The position numbers were made by a program, and so were the translations under genes. Under the pieces are notes generated by a model. The model saw nothing but the letters and a program-made list of their open reading frames with translations, was not told the DNA's origin and made no database searches. This document shows positions 430 to 23,405 of a DNA stretch of 64,000 nucleotides, in pieces. Source of the stretch: Kocuria marina (GTDB lineage Bacteria > Actinomycetota > Actinomycetes > Actinomycetales > Micrococcaceae); contig NZ_JROM01000016.1 in NCBI RefSeq assembly GCF_000786655.1, forward strand, positions 310,001-374,000, written 5' to 3'. The stretch's first letter is position 1, and every line of letters begins with the position of its first letter.

Positions 430-2415
430 GTGAAGGCTCCGACACCCTTCCCCCGGGGTTTCGTTCTTGGACGCTTGCGAACGGAGCACGCGCATGGCAT
501 CCCCGGTGCCTGGACGAGCACCGACCTGCCCGCAGAAGGGTGGTTCTTCTCGTACCCGAGCAACGAGCCCCCGGCCATCGAGCGCGACCCCCAGACAGGT
601 GCCTGGGTGCTCGTCCACGGACTGTGCCTCAACGCCGACCCTCAGAACCCCGATACTCCGCCAGCCCGATACCTTTTGGAGCACCTGCTCATCGGGCAGG
701 ATGCTTTCTACCACGCCCTAGACAGGCTGGGTGGACGTCACCTGATCCTTCAGGGCACGCCAGACTTTCTGACCGTCTACAACGACGCGGCCGGCACCCG
801 CTCCGTCTACTGGTCCGAGTCGGCCCAGGTCGTAGCCTCCCACCTGGCACTCCTGAACGAGGTGCACCCCCACGACCGACGAAACGATGCCCAGGAGCAA
901 CGCGCTTCACTGGGTACATGGGACGACACGCGCTTCGCGGGCATCAAGCCGCTGCTGCCCAATCACGAGTTGCAGATTCCGCAGTGGTCCACCGAACGGT
1001 TCTTTCCTCGCGCATCGAACCGCTACACGGAATGGTCCGATGACGACCGGCGGGAAGAGTTTCGCTCCATGTGGGCGACCCAAATCAGAAATCTCCGCAC
1101 ACATCACGACGACCTCGTCATGTCCATCACGGGAGGAGCTGACAGCCGGACGGCGCTCTCATTGTTGCTCGAGTTCGCCGACGACATCGAGTTCTTCACC
1201 TACACGTCTGCCGAAGGCGATCAGAGCAGGTGGGGCAGAGCGCTCGCCATGGACAAGACGATCGTGGACCAGCTGATGACGGTCGTGAGCTTGAAGCACC
1301 AATACTTCCGAGCAACAGAGCAGGACGCCCGCGTTCTGGACGAGCTCCTGCCGGTGGTGTCCCGGAACACCCCTCACTCACACGGACGGTGGTTGCTGCC
1401 CTTCTATTACCAGAATTTCGGGCACCGACAGCCGATCCACCTTCGGGCCAACGGGTTCGAGATTGGGCGGGCCCACTGGGGTGTTCGCGCGGACAACAAC
1501 ACCTTTGACGCGCTGAAAGGGGTGTACTGGGCGGAGACACGAACGCGATCCACTGGGCTTCCGGAGGAAGAACGTCGTCGACGCTTTGAAGCGGGTCTCG
1601 TGGACTGGCAGTGGAATGGTGAACTGCACGACTACCATCTCCTCGATCTCTACTACTGGGAAGTCCGCAGTGGTCGGTGGTTGGCAGAGGTGTTCAACGA
1701 AACAGACATTGCGTTCGACACGCTTCTGCCGATCAATGTGCGCGCACTCTACGAGATCAGCCTGTCCTATCCCCCGGTTTCACGACACGGTGGACACTTG
1801 TTCTCGGAGCTAATCAACGACACCCACCCCGTCCTGAACTTCTTCGGCAAGAACGACGTCCGCAACCTGTACGAGCAGAAACGCGACGAATCGCTCGGTG
1901 GCGCGGACACCCCCAGAGATGCGCACCATCTCGGCTCAACTCTGCTTCTCACGCACCAGGACGGGTCGGAGACCAGGACCGCACGGACCGACACCGTCAT
2001 CATGATCCCGAAGCGACACTTCCTCGCGGGCGCCACTGTCGCTCGCGAGGTGCGGGTGCCCACCGACGTGGACCGTTCCACCCTATCCTTCACCGTCGAC
2101 GCGCCCTACGGCAATCAGAGGGGTGGGGACAACTTCCGCTACGAGATCCACGTCGATGGCGAGGTTAGCGCCTGCTGGGATGGCGCGCTCGTGAGCCGGC
2201 CGGTCCGAGTCTCGGTGGACGAATGCCGACCAACTACCAACGTTGCGGTCGTCGTCAGGGCGCTGCGCGACAGGCAGGACATCCCGTCGTGGGAGAACGC
2301 TACGCGTGCGTCGGTCCACCACATCACGCGACACCGCGGGCAGGGAGCGGCTACGGGCGCAGGACCAATGACCTCGATCGACGCTCCGTGTCCTTCGATG
2401 CCCCGAGGATCATGA
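430..2415 (+). CDS. Asparagine-synthetase-like protein with C-terminal beta-rich domain
   Basis: This 661-residue protein carries an ATP-pyrophosphatase loop, SITGGADSR at residues 232-240, the signature of asparagine synthetase-type amide ligases that adenylate a carboxylate. Residues 1-200 resemble the Ntn glutaminase fold (YNDAAGTRSVYW, VASHLALL), but there is no Cys at position 2, so glutamine hydrolysis is unlikely and the nitrogen donor is probably ammonia or an amine. Residues about 515-640 look like a beta-sandwich with no family I can name. The start is a GTG at 430 preceded by GAGAAAGG. Such proteins occur in capsule and teichuronic acid clusters of Gram-positives. The substrate is unknown; amidation of a uronic acid is my inference. 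Confidence 0.75.
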   Translation: MKAPTPFPRGFVLGRLRTEHAHGIPGAWTSTDLPAEGWFFSYPSNEPPAIERDPQTGAWVLVHGLCLNADPQNPDTPPARYLLEHLLIGQDAFYHALDRLGGRHLILQGTPDFLTVYNDAAGTRSVYWSESAQVVASHLALLNEVHPHDRRNDAQEQRASLGTWDDTRFAGIKPLLPNHELQIPQWSTERFFPRASNRYTEWSDDDRREEFRSMWATQIRNLRTHHDDLVMSITGGADSRTALSLLLEFADDIEFFTYTSAEGDQSRWGRALAMDKTIVDQLMTVVSLKHQYFRATEQDARVLDELLPVVSRNTPHSHGRWLLPFYYQNFGHRQPIHLRANGFEIGRAHWGVRADNNTFDALKGVYWAETRTRSTGLPEEERRRRFEAGLVDWQWNGELHDYHLLDLYYWEVRSGRWLAEVFNETDIAFDTLLPINVRALYEISLSYPPVSRHGGHLFSELINDTHPVLNFFGKNDVRNLYEQKRDESLGGADTPRDAHHLGSTLLLTHQDGSETRTARTDTVIMIPKRHFLAGATVAREVRVPTDVDRSTLSFTVDAPYGNQRGGDNFRYEIHVDGEVSACWDGALVSRPVRVSVDECRPTTNVAVVVRALRDRQDIPSWENATRASVHHITRHRGQGAATGAGPMTSIDAPCPSMPRGS

Positions 2416-2477: not shown

Positions 2478-4358
2478 ATGAATTGGCACAGCCTGTCCCC
2501 CGCCCTCTCTCTTCGGCCGGGCGAGGAGGCTGACGAGTGCCATGTGGAGTCGCTGTCGGAGAGCCACGGATACCTGGGATATCTGCGTGATAATTCCAAG
2601 TTCGGGACGCCCCCCGCACAGACCTCCTTCGCACCTCAAGCAGGTCGCACGGTTCATGTGGCCGTTCCCGCCGCGATCCACCGAGGAAACGTGCGGCTAC
2701 GACTGTGTGTGATTTGCTATGTAGGCGACGTTCGGGATGTCAGAAAATTCTGGTCGGGGAACGGCACCACGGCCGCGCAACTCGAGATACCTTACGACAC
2801 CAGGGAAGTTTCTCTCCTGCTACGAGTCCAGGGCGAGGGAACACTGACTGTGGGCACCCCGGTGACGCACTATGGTGTGAGTCTGGACTCATGGCGGGAG
2901 ATCGTCCCCGTACTTCCGAATACGCGTCTTCGGGTGGAGATCGAGACCAGCTCCACACAGGACTTGGCAAATTCGGCGCTCGCGATGATCGAGTTCCAGG
3001 ACGCTGACGAGCAACCACTGGATCCATCTCCGGACCTGGCCATCAACGTCAAACTCGGAAATTACTGCTATCTCACCACAGGCTCGAGCACAGACGTATC
3101 GAAGACTGACATCGAGATTGAGGTCCCCGCAGACGCGTCCGCCCTGAAAATCTCCGGTCGGCAGTGGAAGACCCGTAATGCCACCACGGTGCTCGACTCC
3201 CCCCGAGTGAGTGAGGTCGAGGGGCAAACGCATGACGACGTCTTCGTAAAGAACATGGAGTGGTTGCGGAACCTGCCCGCCCAGTCGGCCCTCGTCGTGC
3301 TCTACACGACTGCCCCGCCTGTAGGACACCCCACGCTTTCACTGCGCCCCAACCGTCTTGCCGAAGAATATCGAAGACTTGGGATCGAGGTTATCTTCTT
3401 CCCGTTCAGCAGCATCAAGAATGATCAGCGGCTGACGGACACGGGGATCGTCCAGTTCAGCCGCACGGAACTCGACCAGGTGAACGAGGTGCTCCGCACC
3501 CGGCACGGCACCGGCAACCTTTTCATCTGCAGCTCGTTCCCGGATATTGGAGCTCTCACGACGATCGATCTCCTGAAGGCCTCAGGATGGCTGACGATGT
3601 ACGAGGTGCGGGATGAGATGGAGGAATTCAACCGGGTGGGCTACTCGAAGTGGTTCGAGCCCGAACTCGAGCGGCAGGTGGTGCAACGGGTGGACAGCAT
3701 CGTGACCGTGAGCCCACGTTTGGCGGAGAAGATGAGTATTATTTCTCGCGGCACGGCCAGTCCCGTGGTGATACAGAACGCCGCACCGCCGGCCCTGATT
3801 GCCAAGGGCGCGACCCTACGGACCCCGGAGGCCCTTGCCTCCCGCCTCGACCACCGGGTCATCGGCTACATGGGACACCTCACGGACTCCTGGTTCGACT
3901 GGGACCTCCTCATCACCTGCGCGGTGACGAACCCTGACCTCCAGTTCGAGATCATCGGCCATGGTCTGCCCAAGAACCTGGACCTGCCGGAGAACGTAAC
4001 CCACCTCGGACCTCGGACACACGAAGAATTCCTTAAGATCTGCCGTCGATGGCTCGTGGGCATCATTCCCTTCCAGCCCACGCCGCTGACCTACGCGGTG
4101 GACCCGAACAAGATCTACGAATACCTTGCGGCCGGGCTGCGCACGGTCACCGCCCCGATGGGGTCGGTCGCCCTCTGCCCCTCCACCTACGTCTACGAAC
4201 GTCCTGAGGACTTTCCTTCGACGCTGCGGCGGGCCGTGGAGGAGGAATTCTCCGAGGGTGAGCTGCAGATCATCAACGAGTACGTCGTAGGCGCCGGGTG
4301 GGAGAACCGAGCTCGCACGATGGTCACCGTTTCCGGCTTGGAAGGAATGGACCTCTAA
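2478..4358 (+). CDS. GT4-like glycosyltransferase with N-terminal beta-rich region
   Basis: The 626-residue product has a GT-B style C-terminal half. VDSIVTVSPRLAEKM and VIGYMGHLTDSWFDW mark the domain junction, and DPNKIYEYLAAG is the nucleotide-sugar binding region typical of GT4 enzymes. Residues 1 to about 270 are predicted largely beta (alternating hydrophobic strands), have no signal peptide and are unassigned; they may be a sugar-binding module. The start is ATG 2478 with CGAGGT upstream. The stop overlaps the next ATG (TAATG), so the following transferase is translationally coupled. The enzyme likely adds one sugar to a lipid-linked wall polymer on the cytoplasmic face. Donor and acceptor cannot be told from sequence. 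Confidence 0.8.
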   Translation: MNWHSLSPALSLRPGEEADECHVESLSESHGYLGYLRDNSKFGTPPAQTSFAPQAGRTVHVAVPAAIHRGNVRLRLCVICYVGDVRDVRKFWSGNGTTAAQLEIPYDTREVSLLLRVQGEGTLTVGTPVTHYGVSLDSWREIVPVLPNTRLRVEIETSSTQDLANSALAMIEFQDADEQPLDPSPDLAINVKLGNYCYLTTGSSTDVSKTDIEIEVPADASALKISGRQWKTRNATTVLDSPRVSEVEGQTHDDVFVKNMEWLRNLPAQSALVVLYTTAPPVGHPTLSLRPNRLAEEYRRLGIEVIFFPFSSIKNDQRLTDTGIVQFSRTELDQVNEVLRTRHGTGNLFICSSFPDIGALTTIDLLKASGWLTMYEVRDEMEEFNRVGYSKWFEPELERQVVQRVDSIVTVSPRLAEKMSIISRGTASPVVIQNAAPPALIAKGATLRTPEALASRLDHRVIGYMGHLTDSWFDWDLLITCAVTNPDLQFEIIGHGLPKNLDLPENVTHLGPRTHEEFLKICRRWLVGIIPFQPTPLTYAVDPNKIYEYLAAGLRTVTAPMGSVALCPSTYVYERPEDFPSTLRRAVEEEFSEGELQIINEYVVGAGWENRARTMVTVSGLEGMDL

Positions 4359-5341
4359 TGGCACGCATTCTCTCGATCTACCCCAACTGCAGCAAAGGCG
4401 GAATGACCACCGTCTACCGGTCACGAGCAGCTGCTGATCCGAATTCCCAGTTCGACTTCCTGTTCAAGAACGACGCGGGCGGGCGGGATTCCTTCGCAAC
4501 CCTGCCCAACGGGTCGTTTCGCATCTACCCCGAAGCACGGTTCGAAGCGGCCGTCAGGTACGTGGCCTCGCACTCTCACTTCGACGAGATACGTGTGACC
4601 TCGTTGCCCGAACTGGCATCTGCGCTGGCTCAAGAGCATCCGGGCAGAGTGACCTACGAATTCCATTCCTCCAACATGGCAATCATCGACAAGGAGCTGA
4701 AAAGACTCGACCTCGAGTCCATCGTGGCAGTTCAGACACCGAGCCGGTGGCTGACGGCGGCCGTCGTGCGACGCGTTGACGCCCAGTGGGCAGATAAATG
4801 CGTGACGGTGCCCAACCTTGTGGACCACCTCACCTTCCACAAGGAGGTGCCGGCTGCCGACATGGACCTTGGTGACCACGCGGTTCCCCTGCTGTGGATT
4901 GGCCGTTTCGACAAGGGCAAGAACTTCAACGACTTTCTCCGTGTTGTTGCGTCCCTTCCCGAGGAGTTCGTGCCTGTCTCGATCGTGTCCTTGGAGAGCG
5001 AACCGCAGCGGCTCGCTCGTGCGCTCCTGGAAGCCCGGGCCTACGGCGTCGACCAAAAGCTGCGAACGTTCCTCAACCTCAGCCAGGGACACCTCGCTTC
5101 GCTGTACACCTGGGCACGGGACCGCGGAGGTGTTTTGGTGAGCACGTCCTTGGCCGAGTCCTTCGGATATTCGGTGGCGGAGGCACTCGCCTGCGGACTG
5201 CCTGCTGCCGCCTACCGTGTGGGCGGCATCTCGGAGGTCCCAGACTCTGGCACAGCGCATCGGCTCATCCCGGTCGGAGACGTTCCCGCACTGTCACGCG
5301 CTGTTCTGGAGGTGTCCGGTGCACCCGTCCACACCGCTTGA
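4358..5341 (+). CDS. GT4 family glycosyltransferase
   Basis: A compact 327-residue GT-B glycosyltransferase. The C-terminal domain begins near PLLWIGRFDKGKN and contains the EX7E motif ESFGYSVAEALACGLP followed by GGISEV, classic for retaining GT4 enzymes. I chose ATG 4358 because it overlaps the previous stop (TAATG) and has GGAAGGA 10-16 nt upstream; the longer frame from 4298 has no ribosome site. The last 23 bases overlap the next gene. It belongs to the plus-strand polysaccharide cassette; its acceptor is not identifiable. Confidence 0.82.
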   Translation: MARILSIYPNCSKGGMTTVYRSRAAADPNSQFDFLFKNDAGGRDSFATLPNGSFRIYPEARFEAAVRYVASHSHFDEIRVTSLPELASALAQEHPGRVTYEFHSSNMAIIDKELKRLDLESIVAVQTPSRWLTAAVVRRVDAQWADKCVTVPNLVDHLTFHKEVPAADMDLGDHAVPLLWIGRFDKGKNFNDFLRVVASLPEEFVPVSIVSLESEPQRLARALLEARAYGVDQKLRTFLNLSQGHLASLYTWARDRGGVLVSTSLAESFGYSVAEALACGLPAAAYRVGGISEVPDSGTAHRLIPVGDVPALSRAVLEVSGAPVHTA

Positions 5342-6800
5342 ACGCTTGCCACAGATGTCTCCCGACACTGCGTCAGGAATTATCATCCGCATCCGCGATC
5401 CTAAAGCTCCCGGAGGGCCGGTGAGCCGCCGGTCGGGGCCGGGCTGCTTGGAACTGACCCCCGATCCCAGCTGGGCCTGGGACGGCGACGACTGGCTCAA
5501 CGAGGCGGACCGGCAGCTGGTGGCCCTCTGCGGCCGCGCCGAAGCAACCACTTCGGCGGCCACCGTGGTCATCGCGGAGGCCGGGGCGATCCCCTACGCC
5601 GTGTCGTGGAGCACCAGCCGCGCGGGCCTGGACGTCTTGCTGTTGTTCCCGCGCTCCGTGGGCGAAGACATTCCCCCCGAGAACGCTCTGGGCGTCGTGG
5701 ACTCGGGCTCCGGTACGCCGCTGACACTCCTGAGCTACCCGCGCATCCAGAGCGGATCCAACGGCCCGCGCAACGACTCCTGGTTGAAGCTGTTCGGCCG
5801 TAGCCGTCTTGCGCGGGAGTCCCATTTCGAATATCTCCCCTCGGGCCCTCCGAGCGCCTCCCCCCTCAGCACACCCCGAGTCGTGGAGCACCTGGTCGCC
5901 AAGGCACTGATCATGCGGCAGTCCCTGGGCGCGTTGAAAAAGATCAAGGAGGCCGTTGGCGCCCAGGTACCGGAGGAGACCCTCGACCGCGCGCAGACGA
6001 CATACCAGGGCCTGGTGGCTCTCGCCATGGATCGTCTGCGCAGAGCGGGGGGATCTCCTGACTGGATTCTGGACAAACTTGAATCAAAAGAGTGGGCGGT
6101 CAGCCACGGATTTCCCGTAGCCCGGCTTCGAGACGTGATCTACGATCCGGGAGAACTGCGCCTTGAACACTTCACTACCGCTGGAGTCCTGAAGCCTGTA
6201 AGGGGTAGCTCCTCCATGGGCGTCAAGATTCTGCACACGAACGGTGCCTCCCTGGTGTCCCCCGGCTCACCACAGGGCATGGAGCTCGAGGACCTGCGAG
6301 ACCTGGAGGCTGATGCCCTTCGCCGTCTTTCGGACGACGCAGTCTCTCGGGGACTGCTCATCGAGGACCCCGTCCTCGACGTCGAAGGCCACCCCGTCCG
6401 AGTGGACTACAAGTTCTTCTTCAGCGGAGACGCCCCTGTCCTCGCCATGATGGGGGAACGTCGCAACGGCGGCATCTACTGCCACTGGACGGATCCCCAC
6501 GGTGTCGTCACCCACCCGAATCCAGTGTGGACCAACACCCACTACCGTCACGTGACAGAGATGCCGAAACCTGATGCCTGGTCTGACCTGCTGGACATGG
6601 CAACCGACATCTACCGTGCCACGGGGTTCGACTTCACGAGAATCGACATGTATTTGGGGGCTGACGGTCCTGTCTTTGGAGAAGTCACTCCCAGCCCGGG
6701 TAACTTCTTCTTCGGCAACGGAGACAAGTTAGCACTCAGCACGTCGTTGGACATCGCACGCAAAGTGCACGCCGCTTCCGTTTCCGAGGAGACGCATTGA
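5319..6800 (+). CDS. TupA-like ATP-grasp ligase
   Basis: The 493-residue protein ends in an ATP-grasp fold resembling the TupA-like family named after the teichuronopeptide gene. GVLKPVRGSSSMGVKIL is the phosphate-binding loop region, VRVDYKFFF the nucleotide strand, and FDFTRIDMYL with FGEVTPSPGNF the acidic metal-binding strand. ATP-grasp enzymes join a carboxylate to an amine through an acyl-phosphate, so coupling of an amino acid to a uronic acid polymer is plausible. Residues 1-180 are unassigned. The start is inferred as GTG 5319, 6 nt after GGAGG (5308-5312) and inside the preceding gene; ATG 5355 lacks a ribosome site. The stop overlaps the next TTG start (TTGA). Confidence 0.75.
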   Translation: MHPSTPLERLPQMSPDTASGIIIRIRDPKAPGGPVSRRSGPGCLELTPDPSWAWDGDDWLNEADRQLVALCGRAEATTSAATVVIAEAGAIPYAVSWSTSRAGLDVLLLFPRSVGEDIPPENALGVVDSGSGTPLTLLSYPRIQSGSNGPRNDSWLKLFGRSRLARESHFEYLPSGPPSASPLSTPRVVEHLVAKALIMRQSLGALKKIKEAVGAQVPEETLDRAQTTYQGLVALAMDRLRRAGGSPDWILDKLESKEWAVSHGFPVARLRDVIYDPGELRLEHFTTAGVLKPVRGSSSMGVKILHTNGASLVSPGSPQGMELEDLRDLEADALRRLSDDAVSRGLLIEDPVLDVEGHPVRVDYKFFFSGDAPVLAMMGERRNGGIYCHWTDPHGVVTHPNPVWTNTHYRHVTEMPKPDAWSDLLDMATDIYRATGFDFTRIDMYLGADGPVFGEVTPSPGNFFFGNGDKLALSTSLDIARKVHAASVSEETH

Positions 6801-9019
6801 CAGCTATCACACGTGACCTCTCCAAGTACGAGTCCGATCGCAAGGAATTTGACTCGTTGGACTCCCTGCTGCGTTCAGACGAGAGCGCGTCTGGTTTGTA
6901 CAGCATTCGCCACCGGGCTGACGTGTACACGGACGTCCTCTTCTGGAATCAGCAGTCGGATGTCACCATCGTCTGTTTCAATGGTGCCGGAGCACCCGCG
7001 GGCGGAAAACGCCCAGGGTTCAACGGCACATCCATGTTCAATAGCTGGAAACTGGTGAACAAGGCGAACTTCGTATTCATTCACGATGCCACCTTGTATC
7101 TGCATGAGAACCTTCGGCTTGCTTGGTATATAGGTGAAGCAAATTTTGACTATACTAATACTGTCGAGGGTATTATCCGGCATTTCGTCAATGCAACAGA
7201 CCCTGACCACTTGATATTTTTTGGGATCTCGGGGGGCGGGCACGCTGCGCTCAATTATTCGACCAAGTTCCCTGGCAGTGTCGCGGTGGCAGGAAACCCC
7301 CAAACTAATATCGACAAGTATGAAAGTCCGTTCAGGGACAATTATTACAAAACGTGCTGGGTGGAGTCGAATTCTCCGGCATCGGAGGGCGATAATCCCA
7401 AGAACTTCGATTTGACGGCACGATATGCGGACGGAACTGATAATTTCGCATATTGCTTGGTAAATATAAATGACAAGCACCATGTAGAGCAGCATCTTAT
7501 CCCGCTCATTGAGGCGGCAAGTAGGCACTTGAATGTTCGAACGCTCATCAGGTACTGGGGATCCGGGCATGCTGCGCCATCCCCTCAATTTCTTCTGGAG
7601 TTCTTTGATGAGCTCGTATCCCGCTTGCGAGAGGGATCCATTTTTCCCGCTGTGAAGGAATCTCGGCTACTCGAGAACAAGAATGACGTTTACGCAATCG
7701 CCAAGTATCAATCTTCACCCGCTCAACAGGAATTATTTACGGGTCTAATTCAGGGGGTGGACCAAGCGGCGTTCGCGCTCAACGCGGGAGTCACTGAAAC
7801 TCTGGAAGTGAATGCGGACGTAGAGTTCACGGGACATAGTCCAGGGAAAGGCAAGATTGAATTGATCCTGGACTCTAATTCCAATGGCCAATATATTTAT
7901 GGTCTCCGGGCAACCAGTTCAGGTTACGAATCAACCTTTGTGTTTCGCTCTGGCGGGGCCTCCGTCCTGCGGACCTATGTACCAAGCCATCTGGTAGTAC
8001 GAGGGATACGAATTATATTTCCTCCTGGCGAAAACGTGGCGCTCCGGAGAGTTTTGTTGACGTCTTATAACAACAATCGTGTCCCCCAGGCCGACCAGTG
8101 GCGGCCCGAAATATTGTGGAACAATAGTTCAGACGCCAAGAACCCGAAGGGTCCCGCCGAGGTTGCTTCTCCGGATGATAGCCCCAGGATTGAAATAAAA
8201 GATATTCCGAGTTTATCTTCAACGGTATTTCCGGTTGATACCCCGACGCGATTAAATGTGGTCACTAGTAGCTGTACGATACCGCTGCTTGTTGTAAGGC
8301 GTAAATTTGCGGATCGGACCGTAGTATTTTCCAACGGGGCCGTGGATCTCAATCGCTCCAATAGGGCACCTGTGTTTCAGCGGAGCACTTGGTGGGAGTC
8401 GGTGGTCGGTCATCAGATTTTTGTCTGTGATCCGGGGACCGTGGGGCCTGAGGCTCTGGGCTTGTCCTGGGGACATTTATCTCAGACATGCTGGTGCATA
8501 CCGGACATATCCGTGGTGGTCCATCAACTTGCCGAGGTTTTGGGTACAGCTCAGGCGAGCCAGCGTATCTACTTCGGCTCATCTGGAGGCGGCTTCATGT
8601 CGATTGGTCTATGCCATTACGACCCGGGGTCGAGAGCAGTTGTTAACAACGCTCAACTGGATTGGACTCTCTGGATGACCGGCGCAGTCAATGCGTTACG
8701 GTCAGCGCGATTCGACAATCTGATGCCTGCAGATATTCGTATGAAATGGCCAACCACCACAAGCGTCTTAAAATTGATTCAATCCGGCAACACTTCCCCT
8801 CAGATAGATTACCTGGTCAATTTGGCGTCGAAGCATGACAGCTCTGTGGAATTGCCGCTGATGGAACAATTTATTAAAGATAACCCACAGTCCGCTTCAA
8901 ATATCCGGGTTTTCAAATACCGGCACCAGGCTTCGGGTCACAACCCTCTTTTCAAAGATATCGCGATCAAATACATCAATGGAGACGTCGCGAATGTAAA
9001 GCTGCCAGGGGTCTCTTAG
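6797..9019 (+). CDS. Tandem alpha/beta-hydrolase-like protein, AT-rich
   Basis: A 740-residue protein I cannot assign to a named family. It has two similar halves. Half one contains FFGISGGGHAALN (nucleophile Ser145), NINDKHH (Asp226) and WGSGHAAP (His258). Half two contains YFGSSGGGFMSIG (Ser596) and ASGHNPLF (His715), but the segment matching NINDKHH reads NLASKHD. Between them, about residues 325-500, lies a beta-rich stretch. No signal peptide or membrane segment is visible, so it should be cytoplasmic. Start is TTG 6797 with GAGGAGA upstream, overlapping the ATP-grasp stop. From about 7100 onward base composition falls sharply (22 of 60 G+C at 7141-7200, 20 of 60 at 7441-7500), unlike its neighbours. 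An acyl transferase or esterase acting on the polymer or a precursor is the best guess. Confidence 0.6.
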   Translation: MTAITRDLSKYESDRKEFDSLDSLLRSDESASGLYSIRHRADVYTDVLFWNQQSDVTIVCFNGAGAPAGGKRPGFNGTSMFNSWKLVNKANFVFIHDATLYLHENLRLAWYIGEANFDYTNTVEGIIRHFVNATDPDHLIFFGISGGGHAALNYSTKFPGSVAVAGNPQTNIDKYESPFRDNYYKTCWVESNSPASEGDNPKNFDLTARYADGTDNFAYCLVNINDKHHVEQHLIPLIEAASRHLNVRTLIRYWGSGHAAPSPQFLLEFFDELVSRLREGSIFPAVKESRLLENKNDVYAIAKYQSSPAQQELFTGLIQGVDQAAFALNAGVTETLEVNADVEFTGHSPGKGKIELILDSNSNGQYIYGLRATSSGYESTFVFRSGGASVLRTYVPSHLVVRGIRIIFPPGENVALRRVLLTSYNNNRVPQADQWRPEILWNNSSDAKNPKGPAEVASPDDSPRIEIKDIPSLSSTVFPVDTPTRLNVVTSSCTIPLLVVRRKFADRTVVFSNGAVDLNRSNRAPVFQRSTWWESVVGHQIFVCDPGTVGPEALGLSWGHLSQTCWCIPDISVVVHQLAEVLGTAQASQRIYFGSSGGGFMSIGLCHYDPGSRAVVNNAQLDWTLWMTGAVNALRSARFDNLMPADIRMKWPTTTSVLKLIQSGNTSPQIDYLVNLASKHDSSVELPLMEQFIKDNPQSASNIRVFKYRHQASGHNPLFKDIAIKYINGDVANVKLPGVS

Positions 9020-9133
9020 GCTAGATGGGTGTTCTGGCGTTGGTTACATGGGTGCAGACCGGGGTATCCCAGGGGATTGCTGCACGGATAGGTGAACCGA
9101 ACCTGGCTGGCCGACGGGGGTCGGCCTGGAAGG

Positions 9134-13667: not shown

Positions 13668-14915
13668 TCAGCGCCACAGACCCTTGGTGTCCACCACGGC
13701 CTTGCCCTTTAGGGCGGTCGCGGGCAGAGCCTTGAACTCGTCGTGGTCCACGAGCAGCAACACCACGTCCGCGCGCTCGATCGCGTCCTGGTACTCGGCG
13801 AACTCCACGTTGCCCAGACCCTGCAGGGCCTGGGGCAGTTCCTTGACGTTGGGCTCCACGGCCAGCACGGTCGCGTGGCTCACGTGCTCGGCCAGGTCCT
13901 TGGTGATGTTCATGGCCGGGGATTCACGCAGGTCGTCGATGTTGGCCTTGAACGCGAGGCCCAGGGCTGCGATCACCGGGGACTCCACGTGGGAGCAGGC
14001 TTCCTCCACCTTGGAGATGACCCACTTCGGCTTCCCGTCGTTGACCTCGCGGGCGGTGCGGATGAGGTTGGAGTTCTCCCGGTCCGCCGCCACGATGAAC
14101 CAGGGGTCCACCGCGATGCAGTGCCCGCCCACGCCGGGGCCCGGCTGCAGGATGTTCACCCGCGGGTGGTGGTTGGCCAGCTCAATGAGCTCCCATACGT
14201 CGATGCCCAGCTTGTCCGCGATCAGGGACAGCTCGTTGGCGAACGCGATGTTTACGTCACGGAACGAGTTCTCCGTGAGCTTGGACATCTCCGCCGTGAC
14301 GTCGTCCGTGGCGAGCAGTTCACCCTGACAGAAGGACGCGTAGACCTCCTTGGCGCGGCGCGCGGCCTCGGGGGTGCTGCCGCCGATGATGCGGTCGTTG
14401 CTGATCAGTTCCTCGAGTGCTTTGCCCGGCAGGATGCGCTCGGGGCAGTACGCGAAGTACACCACGGGCTTGCCGTCCTCGCCGTCCAGGGACAGGTCCG
14501 GCCGCAGCTCCATGATCTTACGGGCGAGCGTCTGGGTGGTGCGCGGCGGGGAGGTGGATTCGAGGATCACGGTCTCGTCCCCGCGCAGCTGCGGAGCGAT
14601 GGATTCCGCGGCGGAGAGGATGTAGGACAGGTCGCCCTCGTAGTTCTCCTTGAACGGGGTGGGCACCGCGATCACGAACGCGTCACCGTGCTGCATCTCG
14701 GTCGTCGCGGTGAGCTGGCCGCTATCGATCGCCTTCTTGAGCTGCTCCTCGAGCCCCGGCTCCACGATCGTGACCTCGCCGCGCTGGATCCGCTCCACCG
14801 CGGAGGCGTTCACGTCCACGCCGTGGACCCGCACCCCGTGATTCGCCATGACTACGGCGGTGGGTAACCCGATGTACCCCAGCCCCACGAACACGACTTC
14901 CAACGGCTCACTCAT
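13668..14915 (-). CDS. wecC: UDP-N-acetyl-D-mannosamine dehydrogenase (WecC-type)
   Basis: The 415-residue enzyme has the N-terminal Rossmann motif GLGYIGLPTA (residues 11-20), the central helix region AEMSKLTENSFRDVNIAFAN and the catalytic Cys in GPGVGGHCIAVDPWF, followed by the C-terminal UDP-binding domain (ALGLAFKANIDDLRESPA). PGVGGHCIAVDPWF and ENSFRDVNIAF are typical of the WecC/CapL group, which oxidises UDP-ManNAc to UDP-ManNAcA using two NAD+. ManNAcA is a component of micrococcal teichuronic acid, which fits the locus. Start ATG 14915 has GTGAGGTG upstream. A UDP-GlcNAc 2-epimerase (WecB) is not in the window. UDP-GlcNAc as substrate cannot be excluded. Confidence 0.85.
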   Translation of the reverse strand: MSEPLEVVFVGLGYIGLPTAVVMANHGVRVHGVDVNASAVERIQRGEVTIVEPGLEEQLKKAIDSGQLTATTEMQHGDAFVIAVPTPFKENYEGDLSYILSAAESIAPQLRGDETVILESTSPPRTTQTLARKIMELRPDLSLDGEDGKPVVYFAYCPERILPGKALEELISNDRIIGGSTPEAARRAKEVYASFCQGELLATDDVTAEMSKLTENSFRDVNIAFANELSLIADKLGIDVWELIELANHHPRVNILQPGPGVGGHCIAVDPWFIVAADRENSNLIRTAREVNDGKPKWVISKVEEACSHVESPVIAALGLAFKANIDDLRESPAMNITKDLAEHVSHATVLAVEPNVKELPQALQGLGNVEFAEYQDAIERADVVLLLVDHDEFKALPATALKGKAVVDTKGLWR

Positions 14916-15003: not shown

Positions 15004-16929
15004 TCATATCGTCACATGACGGGTGCTGTCCCCGAACATGACGACACGTCCCGAGGCCAGCGCAGCGGCGTCGGACACCTGCCACGTGTGGCTGTCCGAG
15101 CCGCGGAACTGGATGAAATTGAAGCGGTCCGCCGAATAGATGACGTAGCCGGCTTCGCGCACCGCGGCCAGGAAGGAGGTGTCCTCCCCCGTGCTGCGCC
15201 GCTGGAACGGGATCTGCCGGAAGACCTCGCGGTAGCCCGTGATCGTGGGCCCCATGACGAAGTCCGTGTATCGGTGCTCTCGGTGTGGGAAGCGCACCAG
15301 GGTGGCGTCCTGAGACTCCACGTACATGTAGTGCCCCTGCTTGCGCACCACGTCCGCGTTCGCGTAACGCAGGGCGTCCAGGAGGTCGGCGAGGTAACGC
15401 GGGGCGTAGTAGTCGTCGTCGTCCATCTTGGACAGCACGTCCCCGGTGGCGTGCTCGACCGCGAGGTTGAGGCACTCCCCCAGCGTGAGGGACGCGTCCG
15501 CGGCCACGGTGGTCACGCGCTGGATCCCGCAGTCCTCGACGACGCGCTGGACGTCCCGCGCGCGGGGGTCGAAGCCGTGGGCCACGAGCACCACGTCCAG
15601 CTCCACGTCCACCTGGGCCGCGATCCCGCGCAGGGCGTCCGAGAGTCGATGCGGGCGGTTGGTGCACAGCAACACGGTGACGCTGGGCCGGGTGCGGGCG
15701 ACGGCGAGCTGCGGGACGGCGCGTTCCACGATCGTCTCCACGCGGTGCGTGTAGGTGTGCTGCGCCCAGATCTCGCGCTGCGCGCGGTGGACCATGCGGT
15801 CGGCGAGTTCCGGGCTGCGCACGAGGGCACGGATGACGTCCGCGGCGTGCTCGCGGTCCGCAACAACGGACAGTTGGTCGTGGGAGAAGTACCGTCGCAC
15901 GGCCTCGGACGGTGTGGAGACCACGGGGGTGCCGCACGCGGTGATCTCGAAGATCCTCCGCGCGCACATGGACGGGGAATCCACGACCGAGTTCACGTTG
16001 AGGAAGACCCGGTACGCCTTGTAGGCGGTGAGCATCTGGTCGTAACCCAGCGAGCCCACCACATGCTGGTCCAGGGGCTCGGGGAACTGGTAGCGCTCGT
16101 CCTGGCCCAGGTAGCGGGAGAAGATCTCGAGCCCCCTGTCAAGTTTCGCCGAGGCATCATGTGCGCCGCCGAGCAGCACGTCCATCTGCTCGCGCCGCTC
16201 GGGGAACTTGTGGGCGAAGTACATCCCCCCGAAGGCCACGTCCCGCTCGTGGAACCCGTGCCGGGGCCGCGCGGGGTTGTGCACGGCGGGTTGCGCGGCG
16301 AAGGGCAGTACCCCCACGCGGTCGTGGCCCAGGTCCCGGTGGTAGTCCGGGATCTTGTTGACGTCCGTGGTGAGAACGACGTCGAACAGTCGCGCGCACT
16401 CCAGGAAGTCGTCGTAGTGCGGCGGGTCCTCCTTGTTCCAGAACACGGTGGGGATCCCCTGCTCGCGACAGTGGGCCACGAGCTCGCGCACCGACTCCTT
16501 CACGCCCGAGGTCCCGGTGAGCTGGTACTGCCACTCGTCCGCGTTGCCGTGCCACGCGGACTCCACGAATAACAGGTCCACGGGCTGCGCGGCCACTTCG
16601 GCGCGCCAGTCACGCTGCGTTAGCACCACCTGATGCCACTCGTAGTGGAAAGCACGCAGAGAGAAGTCGTCCAGGATCACCGCCGCGGTGAGGTCCCCGC
16701 GCACCGGTGCGCGCTCGGGCCACTCCTGCGCCGCGAACGAGACCGTGCGCTGCGCGCCGTCGTTCCCGGCGGAGGCGGCGTCGCGGCCGGCTCCGGTGAC
16801 GACGGCGCTCGCGGACGGCCCCGCGGGCAGCCCCGCCCTGCGCCGATAGGTCCGCCACTGGGACACCCCGCCGTGGCGCAGGTGCCACAACTGGGTGCGC
16901 AGATCACCGGTCAGCGAGCGGGGGCTCAT
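15004..16929 (-). CDS. CgeB-like / GT2 fusion glycosyltransferase
   Basis: The 641-residue protein repeats the two-module design of the 10550 gene. A CgeB-like half covers about 80-400 (FWNKEDPPHYDDF at 163-175, FAHKFPERREQM, NVNSVVDSPSMCARRIFEITACGTP). A GT2 half follows from about 415 (SVTVLLCTNRPHRL, and SKMDDDDYYAPRYL with the acidic metal-binding motif at 502-506). Start ATG 16929 overlaps the stop of the TagH-like gene (ATGA), so it is coupled to the exporter. It probably builds the chain or linkage unit that the adjacent ABC transporter exports. Sugar specificity is unknown. Confidence 0.82.
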   Translation of the reverse strand: MSPRSLTGDLRTQLWHLRHGGVSQWRTYRRRAGLPAGPSASAVVTGAGRDAASAGNDGAQRTVSFAAQEWPERAPVRGDLTAAVILDDFSLRAFHYEWHQVVLTQRDWRAEVAAQPVDLLFVESAWHGNADEWQYQLTGTSGVKESVRELVAHCREQGIPTVFWNKEDPPHYDDFLECARLFDVVLTTDVNKIPDYHRDLGHDRVGVLPFAAQPAVHNPARPRHGFHERDVAFGGMYFAHKFPERREQMDVLLGGAHDASAKLDRGLEIFSRYLGQDERYQFPEPLDQHVVGSLGYDQMLTAYKAYRVFLNVNSVVDSPSMCARRIFEITACGTPVVSTPSEAVRRYFSHDQLSVVADREHAADVIRALVRSPELADRMVHRAQREIWAQHTYTHRVETIVERAVPQLAVARTRPSVTVLLCTNRPHRLSDALRGIAAQVDVELDVVLVAHGFDPRARDVQRVVEDCGIQRVTTVAADASLTLGECLNLAVEHATGDVLSKMDDDDYYAPRYLADLLDALRYANADVVRKQGHYMYVESQDATLVRFPHREHRYTDFVMGPTITGYREVFRQIPFQRRSTGEDTSFLAAVREAGYVIYSADRFNFIQFRGSDSHTWQVSDAAALASGRVVMFGDSTRHVTI

Positions 16930-17894
16930 GCGTGCATCTCCCGCAGTTCAGTGCGCACGAGCCGATCCATCAGCTCGAACTTGCGTTTGTGGGCGGCCAG
17001 GTTGTTGCCGGCGGCGAGCTGCTTCATGAACCGCTCGTACTCCTCCGTGACGGTCTCGGGGTCCCCGTCCATGAGCATGTCCCCCTGGTCCAGCCACACC
17101 ACCCGGGTGCACATCTCCCGCACCTCGGCCATGGAATGGGACACGAACAGGACGCACCCGGCCTGTTCGCGGATCTGGGCCATGCGGGCCTGCCCGCGTT
17201 CGCGGAACTGGGCGTCCCCGGTGGACAGGGCCTCGTCCAGGATGAGGATGTGCGGGTCCGTGGCGGTGGCCACGGCGAAGCGCAAGCGCGCGGCCATGCC
17301 GGAGGAGTACGCCTTCATGGGCCAGTGGATGGCCTTGCCCAGCGCCGCGACCTCCACTAGCTCCGGCAGGATCTCGTCCACCCGGCGCGGGTGCATGCCC
17401 TGCGCCAGGCAACCCAGGCGGATGTTCTTCTCCCCCGACAACGCTGGAACCAGGGAAACGTTGACCCCCAGTTTCACGGGGGTGTCCACGGAGTAGACCC
17501 GCCCGGACGTGGGATTCATCTGCCCGGCCACGATGTTCATGAGCGTGGACTTCCCGGAACCGTTGCGCCCGATGAAGCCCACGAACTCACCCTGGTGCAC
17601 CGCGAGCGTGACGTCGTGGACGGCCAGGTTCTGCACGATCGGGGGCCGCCCGAGTGCGCGTCGGGCCCAGCGCACCGGCGCCGAGACAGGGACCTCGTCC
17701 CCGCCGCCCGTGGAGGTGACGTTGTAGATCATGCTCACGTGGTCGATCACCACGGCGGGCCCGGCGCCGGGTTCCCGCGCAGGTGCGGGAGCGCCGTCGC
17801 CGGGGGCGGGTGCGCAGTTGGCGCGCTCCGCGGAAAGGCCCGACGCATCCGGGGCGTGCGACGCGACGTCGTCGTGCCTAGCGTTCATCCGCAT
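16926..17894 (-). CDS. Polysaccharide/teichoic acid ABC exporter, ATP-binding subunit (TagH/Wzt type)
   Basis: The 322-residue ATPase has Walker A GRNGSGKST, signature YSSGMAARLRF and Walker B ILILDEALSTGD followed by the H-loop FVSHSMAEV. The YSSGM signature and the STGD after Walker B are characteristic of the TagH/RfbE/Wzt family that powers export of lipid-linked polymers. It lacks the long C-terminal carbohydrate-binding domain of O-antigen Wzt, so the cargo is probably recognised as in TagGH. The first 45 residues are a low-complexity Ala/Pro-rich leader. Start ATG 17894 has GAGGAGAG upstream and overlaps the permease gene by 17 bases; ATG 17888 is possible. Confidence 0.88.
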   Translation of the reverse strand: MRMNARHDDVASHAPDASGLSAERANCAPAPGDGAPAPAREPGAGPAVVIDHVSMIYNVTSTGGGDEVPVSAPVRWARRALGRPPIVQNLAVHDVTLAVHQGEFVGFIGRNGSGKSTLMNIVAGQMNPTSGRVYSVDTPVKLGVNVSLVPALSGEKNIRLGCLAQGMHPRRVDEILPELVEVAALGKAIHWPMKAYSSGMAARLRFAVATATDPHILILDEALSTGDAQFRERGQARMAQIREQAGCVLFVSHSMAEVREMCTRVVWLDQGDMLMDGDPETVTEEYERFMKQLAAGNNLAAHKRKFELMDRLVRTELREMHA

Positions 17895-18780
17895 AGCTCT
17901 CCTCGTTGCGCCAGAACACCAGGAACCCGATGATCAGGATCCCGAGGGAAGCCGTGACCAACACGGCCCACGAGGACCAGCTGGGAACCTGCGCGCGCAG
18001 CACCAGGTCGCGGCTGATGTAGAGCACCTGGTACAGGGGGTTGAAGTGGAACAGGGCCAGGACGCGCTCGTCGCTCACGAAGCGTGAGGGGTCGTAGAAG
18101 ATCCCGGAGGCGTACATCCACAGCCGCATGAAGAAGGACAGGATGTTGGAGACGTCCGGGATCCGGTGCACCGCCGGGGCCAGGAGCATGCCCAGACCCC
18201 AGTTGAAGATCGTCTGCAGCACGAACACCGGGATGAGCAACAGCCACGTCCACGAGATCGGCTCCAGCGGCGGGACGATCAACAGGAACACCAGGATGAC
18301 CCCGAGCGCGTAGAGCTGGGTCATGGCGTCCCGGACCACGATGGACAGCGTGAGCGCGGCGCGCGGGAACATGAACCCGCGCACCAGCGCCTTGGCGGAG
18401 GTCATGGAGCGGGAGACCGAAACGACGGAACGGGAGCTGTACATGAACATCGTGAGACCGAGCACGATGAACGCCACGAAGTTGTCGATGCCGCGTCCCG
18501 TGCGCAGTAGCAGGCCGAAGATCACGTAAAAGGTGAATCCCAGCAGCAGCGGGTTGAGCACGATCCACGCCTTGCCCAGGAGGGTGTGGTCCTGGCTCAC
18601 GGCCAGGCGGACGCGGGCGTCGTACAGGATGAAGTGACGGGAGCCCCACAGGTCCTTGAGGTACGTGCGCAGCGGTGGGCGGGCGCCCACGGCCTGCATC
18701 GCGGTGGGGTCGAAGGTCTCGACGATGCGGTCCTCCGGTCGCCCGTGTCCCCCGCTGACCTGGGCGGTGTTGCTAGTCAT
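17878..18780 (-). CDS. Polysaccharide ABC exporter permease (TagG/Wzm type)
   Basis: The 300-residue protein is an ABC-2 type permease with about six membrane segments, for example ILNPLLLGFTFYVIFGLLL, FVAFIVLGLTMFMY and a last segment ending GFLVFWRNEESYADER. The FYDPSRF and FNPLYQVLYISRDLVL stretches are usual near the last helices of TagG/Wzm. It forms the membrane channel for the ATPase encoded directly downstream. ATG 18780 was chosen because GAGGAGA lies 7 nt upstream and the start overlaps the preceding stop by 8 bases. Pairing and overlap strongly support a TagGH-like exporter. Confidence 0.87.
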   Translation of the reverse strand: MTSNTAQVSGGHGRPEDRIVETFDPTAMQAVGARPPLRTYLKDLWGSRHFILYDARVRLAVSQDHTLLGKAWIVLNPLLLGFTFYVIFGLLLRTGRGIDNFVAFIVLGLTMFMYSSRSVVSVSRSMTSAKALVRGFMFPRAALTLSIVVRDAMTQLYALGVILVFLLIVPPLEPISWTWLLLIPVFVLQTIFNWGLGMLLAPAVHRIPDVSNILSFFMRLWMYASGIFYDPSRFVSDERVLALFHFNPLYQVLYISRDLVLRAQVPSWSSWAVLVTASLGILIIGFLVFWRNEESYADER

Positions 18781-20728
18781 GCGTCGGTCTCCTCGGGGGG
18801 TGGGTAGCCGTCCGGGGGACGTCTTCATTCAATTCACCATACCGCGTGGATGCTTGCTGGGCGATCACCCGCCACGTCCTGTGCGCGAGCACCCAGTCCC
18901 GCCCGGCGCTCGTGAGGCGTTCGCGGTGCTCGGGGTCCCGGGCCAGGCCGAGCAGGGTCTCGGCAAGGGTGTCCGGGTCCTCGGGGGGTGTGAGGAGTCC
19001 GGTCTCCCCCGGGCGCACGGTCTCGCGCAGGGCGGGAAGGTCGCTCGCGACCACGGCGGTGCGGGCGGCCATGGCCTCGACCGGCTTCAGGGGGGTCACC
19101 GCCCGGGTCACGGAGCGGTCCTTGCGCGGGATCACGAAGACGTCCAGGGCCGCGGTGTACTGCGGTGCGAGGGCTCGGTCCACGCGGCCGGTGAAGGTCA
19201 CGACGTCCTCGAGACCGAGCTCGCGGGTCAGTCGCTGCAAGGCGGGGCGGGCCACGCCGTCCCCCACCACGAGCACCCCCAGGGAGGGGATATGCGGCCG
19301 CAGCCGGGCCGCGGCGCGCAACAGGTCATCGATGCCTTCGTAGTCCACCACGGAGGTCACGGTGCCGATCAGGAATGTCTCCTGGGCGAGGCCCAGGGCG
19401 GCGCGGGCGTCGTGCCGGGAGGGCGAAGTCTCCACGAGGGCCCCGCCCACGGCATTGGGGGCCAGGTCCACGCGCAGGGGGATGTCGAAGGCGGATGCCG
19501 AGGCGGTCAGCTCCTCGAGTCGCCGGGCCATTTCAGATCCCAGCGTCACGGTGCGGTCCGCGGTGGTCACGGCCCACGCCTCGCGAGCCTGGAAGCGCTC
19601 GTAGCGCTCGGACGTGAGGGCCTCCGGCGGACGGGTCGCGGCCCACGTGTCTGCGAGCAACCCGCGGACCTCGTAGACCCACGGGATCCCCAAGGCCTCG
19701 GCCACCGCATGCACGGCCAACGCGTTGACGTAGTGGCTCGTGGTGTGCAGGACAGCGGGCCGCGTGCGCAGCGCGAGCTCCAGCAGCGCCTCCGCATGTT
19801 GCTGCACGCGTCCCGTGGCGGTCGCGGACAGCCGCCGCGGGAGCACGCGGTGGTACGGGATACCGTCCACCACGTCCGTGTGGCGGGCGAGCACCTTGCC
19901 CACCTGCACGGGGTATCCCGGGCGGGTCATGGCATGCACATCCCACCCCTCGTCCCGCAGTGCGGTGAGGTACGAGTGCGAGCGCTGCGCGTAGCCGCTC
20001 GCGGTGTGCGGCAGGGAGTTGGTCACGGCGTAGAGCACGGTGCGGTCCCTGGGCCGATAATCGCGCACGGGTTCCAGCCGCGGGAAGAAGTCGCCCAGCA
20101 GGTCCCGTTCGGCAGCCAGGCGGCGCGCGAGGGCTCGTTCACCGCGGGTGGCCCGGCCGTGGGCCTCGGCGTCGCGCAGCACCTCCACGGCGGGGTCCAC
20201 GTTGCCGTGGTACCACTCGAGGCGCGCGCAGGTCGCGGCCGCCCCCGGGTGGTCGGCGGGGATCGCGGCGAGCAACCGTGCGGTGAGCTCGGTGTCCCCC
20301 ATGCTCAGGGCCACTTCAGCGCCGCCGCGTAACGACGCCGGTGTGCCCCCGCCCCTGCCTCGGCGCACCCGGGTGCTCGGTGCCGTTGTCGGCCGGTGGT
20401 GGCCCGAGCGTACTCGATCCGGTTGCGCGCGTTCTCGGTGCCCATGACCCGGATCCCCCGCGGAGGCGAGGGCGCGGGAGAGGGCGGCGCGAGCGGCGTC
20501 GTCGTCACCCAGGACGTGGAACGCGGTGGCCCGGGCCGACAGGCACCGCAGGCCGGGAAGGCGTGCCAGCACGCGCGTCGCGGGGGTGACCCAGCGTCGC
20601 GGCAGCCGGCGGGAGACCTGCAACCAGAAGACCACGGGATCGTCGGTGACGTGCTGACCGACCGTGCGCGCGGTGAGCCACGCGTTGACCGCGAGCTCAC
20701 GGGACCGTTCGCGGCGCCGTGAACTCAT
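18773..20728 (-). CDS. GT4 family glycosyltransferase with N-terminal helical region
   Basis: The 651-residue protein has a GT4 core from about residue 220 (LPHTASGYAQRSHSYLTAL, PWVYEVRGLLADTW, FLIGTVTSVVDYEGIDDLL, VTPLKPVEAMAARTAVVASD). The N-terminal 200 residues look alpha-helical and TPR-like (FHVLGDDDAARAALSRALA, MGDTELTARLLAAIPADHP). Residues about 93-130 are an abrupt His/Arg-rich stretch not typical of the family and may reflect two compensating frame changes (see findings). Start ATG 20728 overlaps the previous stop (ATGA). It likely adds a sugar during polymer synthesis. Confidence 0.78.
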   Translation of the reverse strand: MSSRRRERSRELAVNAWLTARTVGQHVTDDPVVFWLQVSRRLPRRWVTPATRVLARLPGLRCLSARATAFHVLGDDDAARAALSRALASAGDPGHGHRERAQPDRVRSGHHRPTTAPSTRVRRGRGGGTPASLRGGAEVALSMGDTELTARLLAAIPADHPGAAATCARLEWYHGNVDPAVEVLRDAEAHGRATRGERALARRLAAERDLLGDFFPRLEPVRDYRPRDRTVLYAVTNSLPHTASGYAQRSHSYLTALRDEGWDVHAMTRPGYPVQVGKVLARHTDVVDGIPYHRVLPRRLSATATGRVQQHAEALLELALRTRPAVLHTTSHYVNALAVHAVAEALGIPWVYEVRGLLADTWAATRPPEALTSERYERFQAREAWAVTTADRTVTLGSEMARRLEELTASASAFDIPLRVDLAPNAVGGALVETSPSRHDARAALGLAQETFLIGTVTSVVDYEGIDDLLRAAARLRPHIPSLGVLVVGDGVARPALQRLTRELGLEDVVTFTGRVDRALAPQYTAALDVFVIPRKDRSVTRAVTPLKPVEAMAARTAVVASDLPALRETVRPGETGLLTPPEDPDTLAETLLGLARDPEHRERLTSAGRDWVLAHRTWRVIAQQASTRYGELNEDVPRTATHPPRRPTHD

Positions 20729-23285: not shown

Positions 23286-23381
23286 GTGGCACTCCGTGGG
23301 TGGGGGGATCGGAATCGAGCGACACTCACCGGGCAGCGCTGCCGCCACGGCGACGCTGGGGATCACGTCCCGGCGGGGCGG

Positions 23382-23405
23382 ACCAATGGCCAATTGGCCA
23401 CTGGT
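23382..23405. promoter_or_regulatory. 24-bp inverted repeat in LCP gene leader
   Basis: The 14-bp perfect palindrome TGGCCAATTGGCCA (23387-23400) is flanked by ACCA on the left and TGGT on the right, giving a 24-bp dyad with a single mismatched pair. It lies about 100-120 bases before the LCP start and just downstream of a possible minus-strand -10 box TACTAT (23416-23421). The placement suits a repressor operator or a 5' leader hairpin for the whole LCP-exporter operon. Confidence 0.5.

Follow-up and report, generated by a model that had tools for sequence, protein, structure and literature searches.

The 740-residue protein encoded at positions 6797 to 9019 of a 64,000-nucleotide stretch of Kocuria marina DNA (contig NZ_JROM01000016.1; the whole stretch is called the window here) would join, with a probability that we put at about 0.55, two different and probably active polysaccharide O-acyltransferases with alpha/beta-hydrolase folds into one cytoplasmic chain that decorates a wall polysaccharide. 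This reading is supported by the homology of the two halves, by the conservation of an active site within the family of each half, by the kinship of both in sequence and fold to the acetyltransferases CsaC and Asp2, and by the genes that surround the locus. The coordinates of all features are collected in Table 1.

The protein contains two homologous alpha/beta-hydrolase domains, an earlier note on this DNA having proposed two serine-hydrolase-like halves from motifs in matching contexts. Those motifs were found in place, with GISGGG at residue 143 (Ser145), NINDKHH at 223 (Asp226) and GSGHAAP at 255 (His258) in half 1, and GSSGGG at 594 (Ser596), NLASKHD at 675 and ASGHNPL at 712 (His715) in half 2. 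When the halves were compared directly by two-sequence BLASTP (low-complexity filter and composition adjustment both off), an E-value of 9e-5 was obtained, and a single iterated hidden Markov model (HMM) seeded with both halves recovered residues 16-278 at E 3e-83 and residues 468-735 at E 3e-76. Profile-profile comparison (hhalign) of the two separately built families aligned 256 columns with 99.9 % probability and an E-value of 1.2e-36, and paired NLASKHD with NINDKHH in the same way as the note had done. Nor did the folds of the two halves turn out to be unrelated, either by this profile-profile homology or by the comparison of both with solved structures described below. The half-1 family alignment (A3) holds 26 rows and the half-2 family alignment (A2) 37, the window halves counted in each; domains of the two families are called h1 and h2, and related loci carry L numbers. 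A3 leaves aside a partial domain (L055:15792), L077 (a near copy of L076), L089:9744 and the first copy of L093, and A2 leaves aside the h2 genes of L060, L073, L076 and L077, which were missed in gene calling.

The internal duplication that the same note had suggested did not survive phylogenetic analysis. In a 94-domain tree, a branch with 100/99 support separated 42 h2-side from 52 h1-side rows; the window half 2 grouped with 16 Kocuria h2 rows (100/100), and the window half 1, on the h1 side, had no close partner with good support, so that each half lies in a separate clade with proteins of other species. Forcing the two halves into sisterhood made the log-likelihood worse by 105 and was rejected by the approximately unbiased test (p-AU 1e-9; 42 rows of a thinned set), and a tandem internal duplication is thus ruled out. 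Because the clades are separate and sisterhood is rejected, the gene is best read as the joining of two old families, whose members occur elsewhere as genes of their own or in h2-h1 fusions. The 94 domains, 96 of more than 200 residues before exact duplicates were dropped, were also used for the counts of residue conservation given below, in which BLAST scores assigned 51 to h1 and 43 to h2, as against 52 and 42 on the tree.

Fusions in the order h2-h1 were detected in L063 (578 residues) and L062 (1249 residues, including a PP-loop part), h1 and h2 are adjacent genes in two Brevibacterium loci (L065 and L087), and both families occur within the fetched stretch in 18 of the 39 distinct h2-bearing loci. 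Matches were obtained in 50 of 396 genomes of the same order and in 17 of 27 genomes of the genus, the own genome included in each; the rows listed for the order cover one half each except for the own gene, and those for the genus likewise show one half per row. No orthologue carrying half 1 and half 2 in this order in one frame was listed among the 26 other genomes of the genus, nor among the 395 others of the order, where at most two candidates were scored per genome and cases may be missed. Searching genome contigs with a family alignment revealed 43 loci, including some from Kocuria, Brevibacterium, Brachybacterium, Rothia, Staphylococcus, Macrococcus, Salinicoccus, Jeotgalicoccus, Virgibacillus, Paracoccus and Thioclava, whereas the same search with the single 740-residue sequence gave 33 pattern matches and none confirmed. 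Some loci represent one genome under a number and a name (e.g. L031/L087, L033/L067, L034/L064 and L036/L066), so that 58 of 63 are distinct.

Domains of the h1 type were also found fused to heparinase II/III (L046 and L057), C5-epimerase (L043), hexapeptide-transferase (L041) and family 2 glycosyltransferase (L084) domains, and h2 to a heparinase in L071. DUF6270 is repeatedly fused to h1-type domains (L035, L042, L051 and L053), and a literature search on DUF6270 found no paper. A Geobacteraceae protein (L093:8662-11442) carries three tandem hydrolase-domain copies that grouped on the tree, the first of them without the Ser; in contrast to the 740-residue protein, it is a genuine case of tandem duplication. 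In two further tandem proteins (L045:7899-9716 and L049:4321-6039) the second copy has lost active-site residues, and the idea of a degenerate copy would suit these better than it suits the 740-residue protein.

The predicted active sites of the two halves differ in the position of the acid. In half 1 Ser, His and Asp are all present, whereas in half 2 the canonical place of the acid is taken by Ser678 and an Asp follows three residues further on (Asp681). According to the secondary structure of the models, residues 226 and 678 immediately precede the helix after the strand, and residues 229 and 681 lie in the first turn of that helix. Position 678 of A2 is Ser in 26 rows, Cys in 6, Thr in 2, Leu in 2 and Val in 1, and the half-2 family nevertheless keeps Ser and Gln in 37/37, Asp (35) or Glu (2) at position 681 and His in 35/37, a set that is also present in stand-alone h2 genes. 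As the displaced acid is conserved in its family, half 2 does not look degenerate and is not simply a decayed copy of half 1, against the suggestion in the note that one half was probably degenerate.

By sequence profile, half 2 comes closest to CsaC (deposited as SacC), which O-acetylates the capsule in Neisseria meningitidis serogroup A (PDB 6YUO, 6YUQ, 6YUS and 6YUV), and half 1 to the glycan O-acetyltransferase Asp2. As described in the paper on this enzyme, CsaC was shown experimentally to transfer acetyl from acetyl-coenzyme A (CoA) onto assembled capsule polysaccharide by a Ser114-His228-Asp198 triad extended by Gln138 and His201, about 97 % of the transfer activity was gone in a Q138A mutant, and its authors noted that Gln138 is strongly conserved among a number of bacterial proteins not yet characterised (PMC7501274). 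The second relative, Asp2, O-acetylates N-acetylglucosamine on the adhesin GspB during export and needs its catalytic Ser, according to the corresponding report (PMC5578698). In a search of the PDB sequences with the h2 profile, two CsaC sequences alone fell below E 0.001 (best 2.7e-6), and with the h1 profile Asp2 (E 1.3e-4) was the sole match listed at 0.01, CsaC reaching 0.042. With the single protein, phmmer against the PDB gave nothing at E 1, and no match above cut-off was obtained from Pfam and NCBIfam (Peptidase_S9 20.8 against a gathering threshold of 22.6; serine aminopeptidase S33 13.8 against 27; the accessory Sec protein Asp2, TIGR03712, 15 bits against a curated cut-off of 210.75). 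Together with the presence of Gap2 among the top folds, this weak Asp2 match and the half-1 profile match to the Asp2 chain uphold the lead towards Asp2-like acetyltransferases given in the note. Genes for SecA2, SecY2 or a serine-rich-repeat adhesin did not turn up among the window proteins scanned, which did not include every gene.

The fold comparisons, which cover the listed structures, were clearer for half 2 than for half 1. For the h2 model (predicted local distance difference test, pLDDT, of 93), the four CsaC entries took ranks 1-4 of 1000 re-aligned chains, with Z scores of 20.8-21.7, root-mean-square deviations (rmsd) of 3.4-3.7 and 231-235 aligned residues; the best of them (Z 21.7, rmsd 3.4, 231 aligned) stood two units above an esterase (19.7), the next in rank after the four, and Gap2 (19.6). 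For h1, Gap2 (Z 18.7) and CsaC (18.4-18.7) took ranks 1-5, with esterases effectively tied at 18.0-18.3. A shared fold shows no function, and these comparisons do not by themselves decide it, for half 1 even less than for half 2.

Both halves resemble CsaC in the alpha/beta-hydrolase fold across the whole domain, the nucleophile elbow, the His, the acid and an extra Gln after the nucleophile helix, as well as in their setting in a polysaccharide-synthesis locus, and half 1 also has the D-x-x-H pair. CsaC Gln138 fell on the columns of Gln169 and Gln620 in the HMMER alignments, and CsaC Tyr79 on a column (that of half-1 Trp110) occupied by a conserved Trp in 49/51 h1 and 43/43 h2 domains. In contrast to the fusion described here, CsaC is a single domain of about 250 residues; the acid of half 2 lies three residues further on, and the acceptor polymer is probably different. 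Asp2/Gap2 (TIGR03712; PDB 6LNW and 6OYC) shares the fold and, with half 1, the stretch before and through the nucleophile elbow, but in the HMMER alignment the place of the Gln of CsaC and of both halves is occupied by Leu in Asp2. S-formylglutathione hydrolase/esterase D and antigen 85 structures also share the fold, those esterases of the S-formylglutathione hydrolase type lying within 1 Z of CsaC and Gap2 for half 1, but neither sequence profile, h1 or h2, matched any of them at E 0.001, and in the half-2 comparison CsaC exceeds them by some 2 Z or more.

If the protein works as CsaC does, Ser145 and Ser596 of the nucleophile elbows would take up the acyl group to form an acyl-Ser enzyme, each Ser being activated by His258 or His715 and by the acid Asp226 or Asp681, and positioned by the CsaC-type extra Gln169 or Gln620. 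The acyl group, most likely acetyl from acetyl-CoA, would then be passed in the cytoplasm to a hydroxyl of a surface polymer. The ABC (ATP-binding cassette) transporter would afterwards export this polymer, and the LytR-CpsA-Psr (LCP) protein would attach it to the wall. The two halves may serve two different positions or sugars of one polymer. In this scheme we infer the catalysis itself, the acyl donor, the acceptor sugar or polymer, the division of labour and the order of export.

Several observations weigh against two acyltransferases. Esterases like S-formylglutathione hydrolase are less than 1 Z from CsaC and Gap2 in the fold comparison of half 1, and in that of half 2 they lie 2 Z under CsaC yet level with Gap2, and plain Foldseek with h2 places S9 peptidases first and CsaC 15th. 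At residue level, half 1 has Ile144 at the place of CsaC Ser113, a pantetheine contact, CsaC Arg148, which places the phosphodiester acceptor, is not kept here, and with Ser678 at the canonical acid place the triad of half 2 is non-standard. Altered copies also exist in both families, namely first h2 paralogues with Ser for His (L052 and L054) or Glu for Asp681 (L055 and L058), h1 copies without His or Ser (those of L062 and L063 and the second of L056) and the second copies of L045 and L049, without several active-site residues.

Because the half-1 fold match ties with esterases, the assignment to acyltransferases is weakened and another one gains, namely that O-acyl groups are removed from the polymer by one half or by both, acting as carbohydrate esterases, which we regard as unlikely though worth serious consideration. 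The fold is mainly hydrolytic, the nearest Pfam match is the sub-threshold Peptidase_S9, and the heparinase II/III domains to which other h1-type domains are fused look degradative. Nevertheless, CsaC or Asp2 came first by sequence profile in both halves and CsaC first by fold in half 2, the Gln of CsaC is conserved, and the protein appears to be cytoplasmic and within an export pathway, all of which favour O-acyltransferases.

A different donor has to be weighed in view of the relationship between half 2 and the PP-loop protein at 430-2415. In Kocuria, 16 h2 domains were called in 13 loci, and 10 of them (7 loci) belong to PP-loop fusions, in which h2 forms the C-terminal part of proteins with 931-974 residues or, in L062, lies inside the 1249-residue protein; in L057 and L061, h2 is the gene next to the PP-loop homologue. 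The N-terminal part of these fusions matches the window open reading frame (ORF) 430-2415 at 36-41 %, and this ORF ends at residue 661 without an h2 tail, whereas from residue 460 onward the 740-residue protein matches the tail of the fusions including its linker. For these reasons, the simplest reading is that an h2 tail moved from a PP-loop gene to the half-1 gene. A PP-loop homologue was found in the locus, or fused, in 19/39 h2-bearing as against 1/19 h1-only loci (nominal Fisher p 1e-3, for loci that are related and non-independent), and the PP-loop motif is kept, reading SITGGADSR in the window protein. Homologues are found in Kocuria and staphylococci. At E 1, Pfam gave nothing for the PP-loop protein of the window, querying the PDB with the profile of the PP-loop family (A4) yielded no meaningful match, and of five relatives scanned against Pfam two (L082 and L089) showed weak or partial matches and three (L057, L061 and L070) none, with a weak GATase_7 match in one PP-loop relative; the label 'Asn-synthetase-like' would thus rest on the motif and on the matches in two of five relatives. 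As a separate observation, paired PP-loop-h2 paralogues lie side by side in L052, L054, L055 and L058, the second being split in L054 and the first of each pair altered at the His or Asp681 position.

It is conceivable, at rather low probability, that half 2 is fed by an acyl-adenylate from this partner instead of CoA, and that the polymer is esterified with an amino acid or another acid. The association just described and the retained motif speak for it, but 20 of the 39 h2-bearing loci have no such neighbour at the search sensitivity used, and the kinship to CsaC suggests acetyl-CoA. To our knowledge no chemistry is known for this PP-loop protein, which also counts against it. An elaborate form of the same idea, which we consider a long shot, would have the half-2 family combine the displaced Asp681, one helical turn on with mostly a small residue at the canonical place, in a CsaC-like Gln-extended site with acyl-adenylate from the PP-loop protein, the locus carrying out CoA-independent esterification of a wall polysaccharide paired with a conventional CsaC/Asp2-like acyltransferase. 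Finally, it is improbable that catalysis is confined to half 1, with half 2 serving for regulation or substrate binding, as the note had read it, since Ser678 and the altered copies in both families agree with this but the conserved residues of the h2 family do not, and the h2 profile is nearer to CsaC than the h1 profile.

As shown in Table 1, the genes 5' of the fusion gene on the same strand encode the PP-loop protein, two glycosyltransferases and a TupA-like ATP-grasp ligase, and those on the opposite strand, past transposase remnants, encode glycosyltransferases, a UDP-N-acetyl-mannosamine (UDP-ManNAc) dehydrogenase, an ABC-2 permease with its ATPase and an LCP protein. Homologues (E 1e-8) of these polysaccharide-synthesis proteins of the window were found near 46/58 distinct related loci as against 0/20 control stretches. 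The hydrolase gene, ABC ATPases and the PP-loop protein do not enter this count, in which domains were located by tblastn and the h2 calls of L037, L038 and L093 are weak; the controls were 20 arbitrary stretches from 11 related genomes, Micrococcales only, and the related loci are non-independent. Counting the PP-loop protein as context raised the figure to 51/58 loci, and when ABC ATPases were counted 6/20 controls were also positive. The setting suggests a surface polysaccharide that contains uronic acids, is synthesised inside the cell and leaves it through an ABC transporter. The C-terminal end of another nucleotide-sugar dehydrogenase, at 1-312 of the window, shares 85 % identity with a portion of a gene from Kocuria rhizophila (L059). 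Nothing on point was found among the literature matches listed for a Kocuria wall polymer, and no paper combining three of teichuronic acid, alpha/beta hydrolase, asparagine synthase and heparinase was found in the literature search.

Table 1. Positions in the window of the fusion gene, its predicted domains and residues, and the genes around it (A2 and A3, family alignments of half 2 and half 1)
Feature	Position	Strand	Remarks
PP-loop (Asn-synthetase-like) protein	430..2415	+	other Kocuria homologues often carry h2 as C-terminal tail
Glycosyltransferase, TuaH-like C-terminal part (below model cut-off)	2478..4358	+	N-terminal extension
GT4-type glycosyltransferase	4298..5341	+	
TupA-like ATP-grasp ligase	5217..6800	+	start uncertain
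GAGGAG, Shine-Dalgarno-like	6786..6791	+	5 nt 5' of TTG start of fusion gene
740-aa fusion protein gene	6797..9019	+	h1 domain, linker with beta-rich stretch, h2 domain
Half 1 (h1), residues 16-278, alpha/beta-hydrolase domain, Asp2/CsaC-like	6842..7630	+	iterated HMM, profile and fold comparison
Ser145, predicted nucleophile of half 1 (GISGGG)	7229..7231	+	25/26 in A3
Gln169, aligned with CsaC Gln138	7301..7303	+	44/51 h1-type domains; alignment with CsaC E 0.042
Asp226, predicted acid of half 1	7472..7474	+	26/26 in A3
His229	7481..7483	+	21/26 in A3; D-x-x-H spacing probably like CsaC Asp198/His201 (outside HMMER alignment)
His258, predicted general base of half 1	7568..7570	+	24/26 in A3
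Linker with beta-rich stretch, residues 279-459	7631..8173	+	
Half 2 (h2) with its N-terminal linker, residues 460-735	8174..9001	+	homologous to C-terminal tail of Kocuria PP-loop fusions
Ser596, predicted nucleophile of half 2 (GSSGGG)	8582..8584	+	37/37 in A2
Gln620, aligned with CsaC Gln138	8654..8656	+	37/37 in A2; 42/43 h2-type domains
Ser678, at the place of half-1 Asp226	8828..8830	+	profile-profile alignment
Asp681, predicted relocated acid of half 2	8837..8839	+	Asp 35, Glu 2 of 37 in A2
His715, predicted general base of half 2	8939..8941	+	35/37 in A2
UDP-N-acetyl-mannosamine dehydrogenase	13668..14915	-	
ABC transporter ATPase	16926..17894	-	
ABC-2 permease	17878..18828	-	
LytR-CpsA-Psr (LCP) protein	22257..23393	-	

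The fusion gene is an ORF of 740 codons without internal stop, whose TTG start shares 4 bp (TTGA) with the stop of the upstream ATP-grasp gene. Its G+C content is low, 0.495-0.506 at 7001-9000 as against 0.59-0.75 in the remaining 1-kb stretches of 1-32000, and for this reason the gene was probably gained from another source; the genome that contains the window is 3.07 Mb in size. Transposase remnants lie just 3' of the gene (9092-10088), consisting of an HTH_Tnp_1 ORF and a short integrase-core ORF. The maximal Kyte-Doolittle mean over 19 residues was 1.2, so that there is no strongly hydrophobic segment, and the protein looks cytoplasmic. The stretch between the two domains is predicted at low confidence to be beta-rich (10-residue pLDDT means of 31-61 from residue 281 onward), and a search with this linker gave the 740-residue protein itself as the sole match among the genes called in the related loci then collected. 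When the part of the linker before residue 460 was compared with the beta-rich part of the PP-loop proteins by hhalign, the alignment was convincing at its end only.

The domain types themselves are already known, and it is their fusion and the altered active site of half 2 that look unusual. The analysis describes two Gln-bearing families tied to polysaccharide loci, mainly in Actinomycetota and Bacillota, whose domains are seen joined with one another as well as with heparinase, C5-epimerase, hexapeptide-transferase, DUF6270, glycosyltransferase and PP-loop domains. The shift of the acid in half 2 would be a natural experiment on the rearrangement of an alpha/beta-hydrolase triad, and for Kocuria marina the prediction is that of an O-acylated wall polymer, with two separable activities in one chain.

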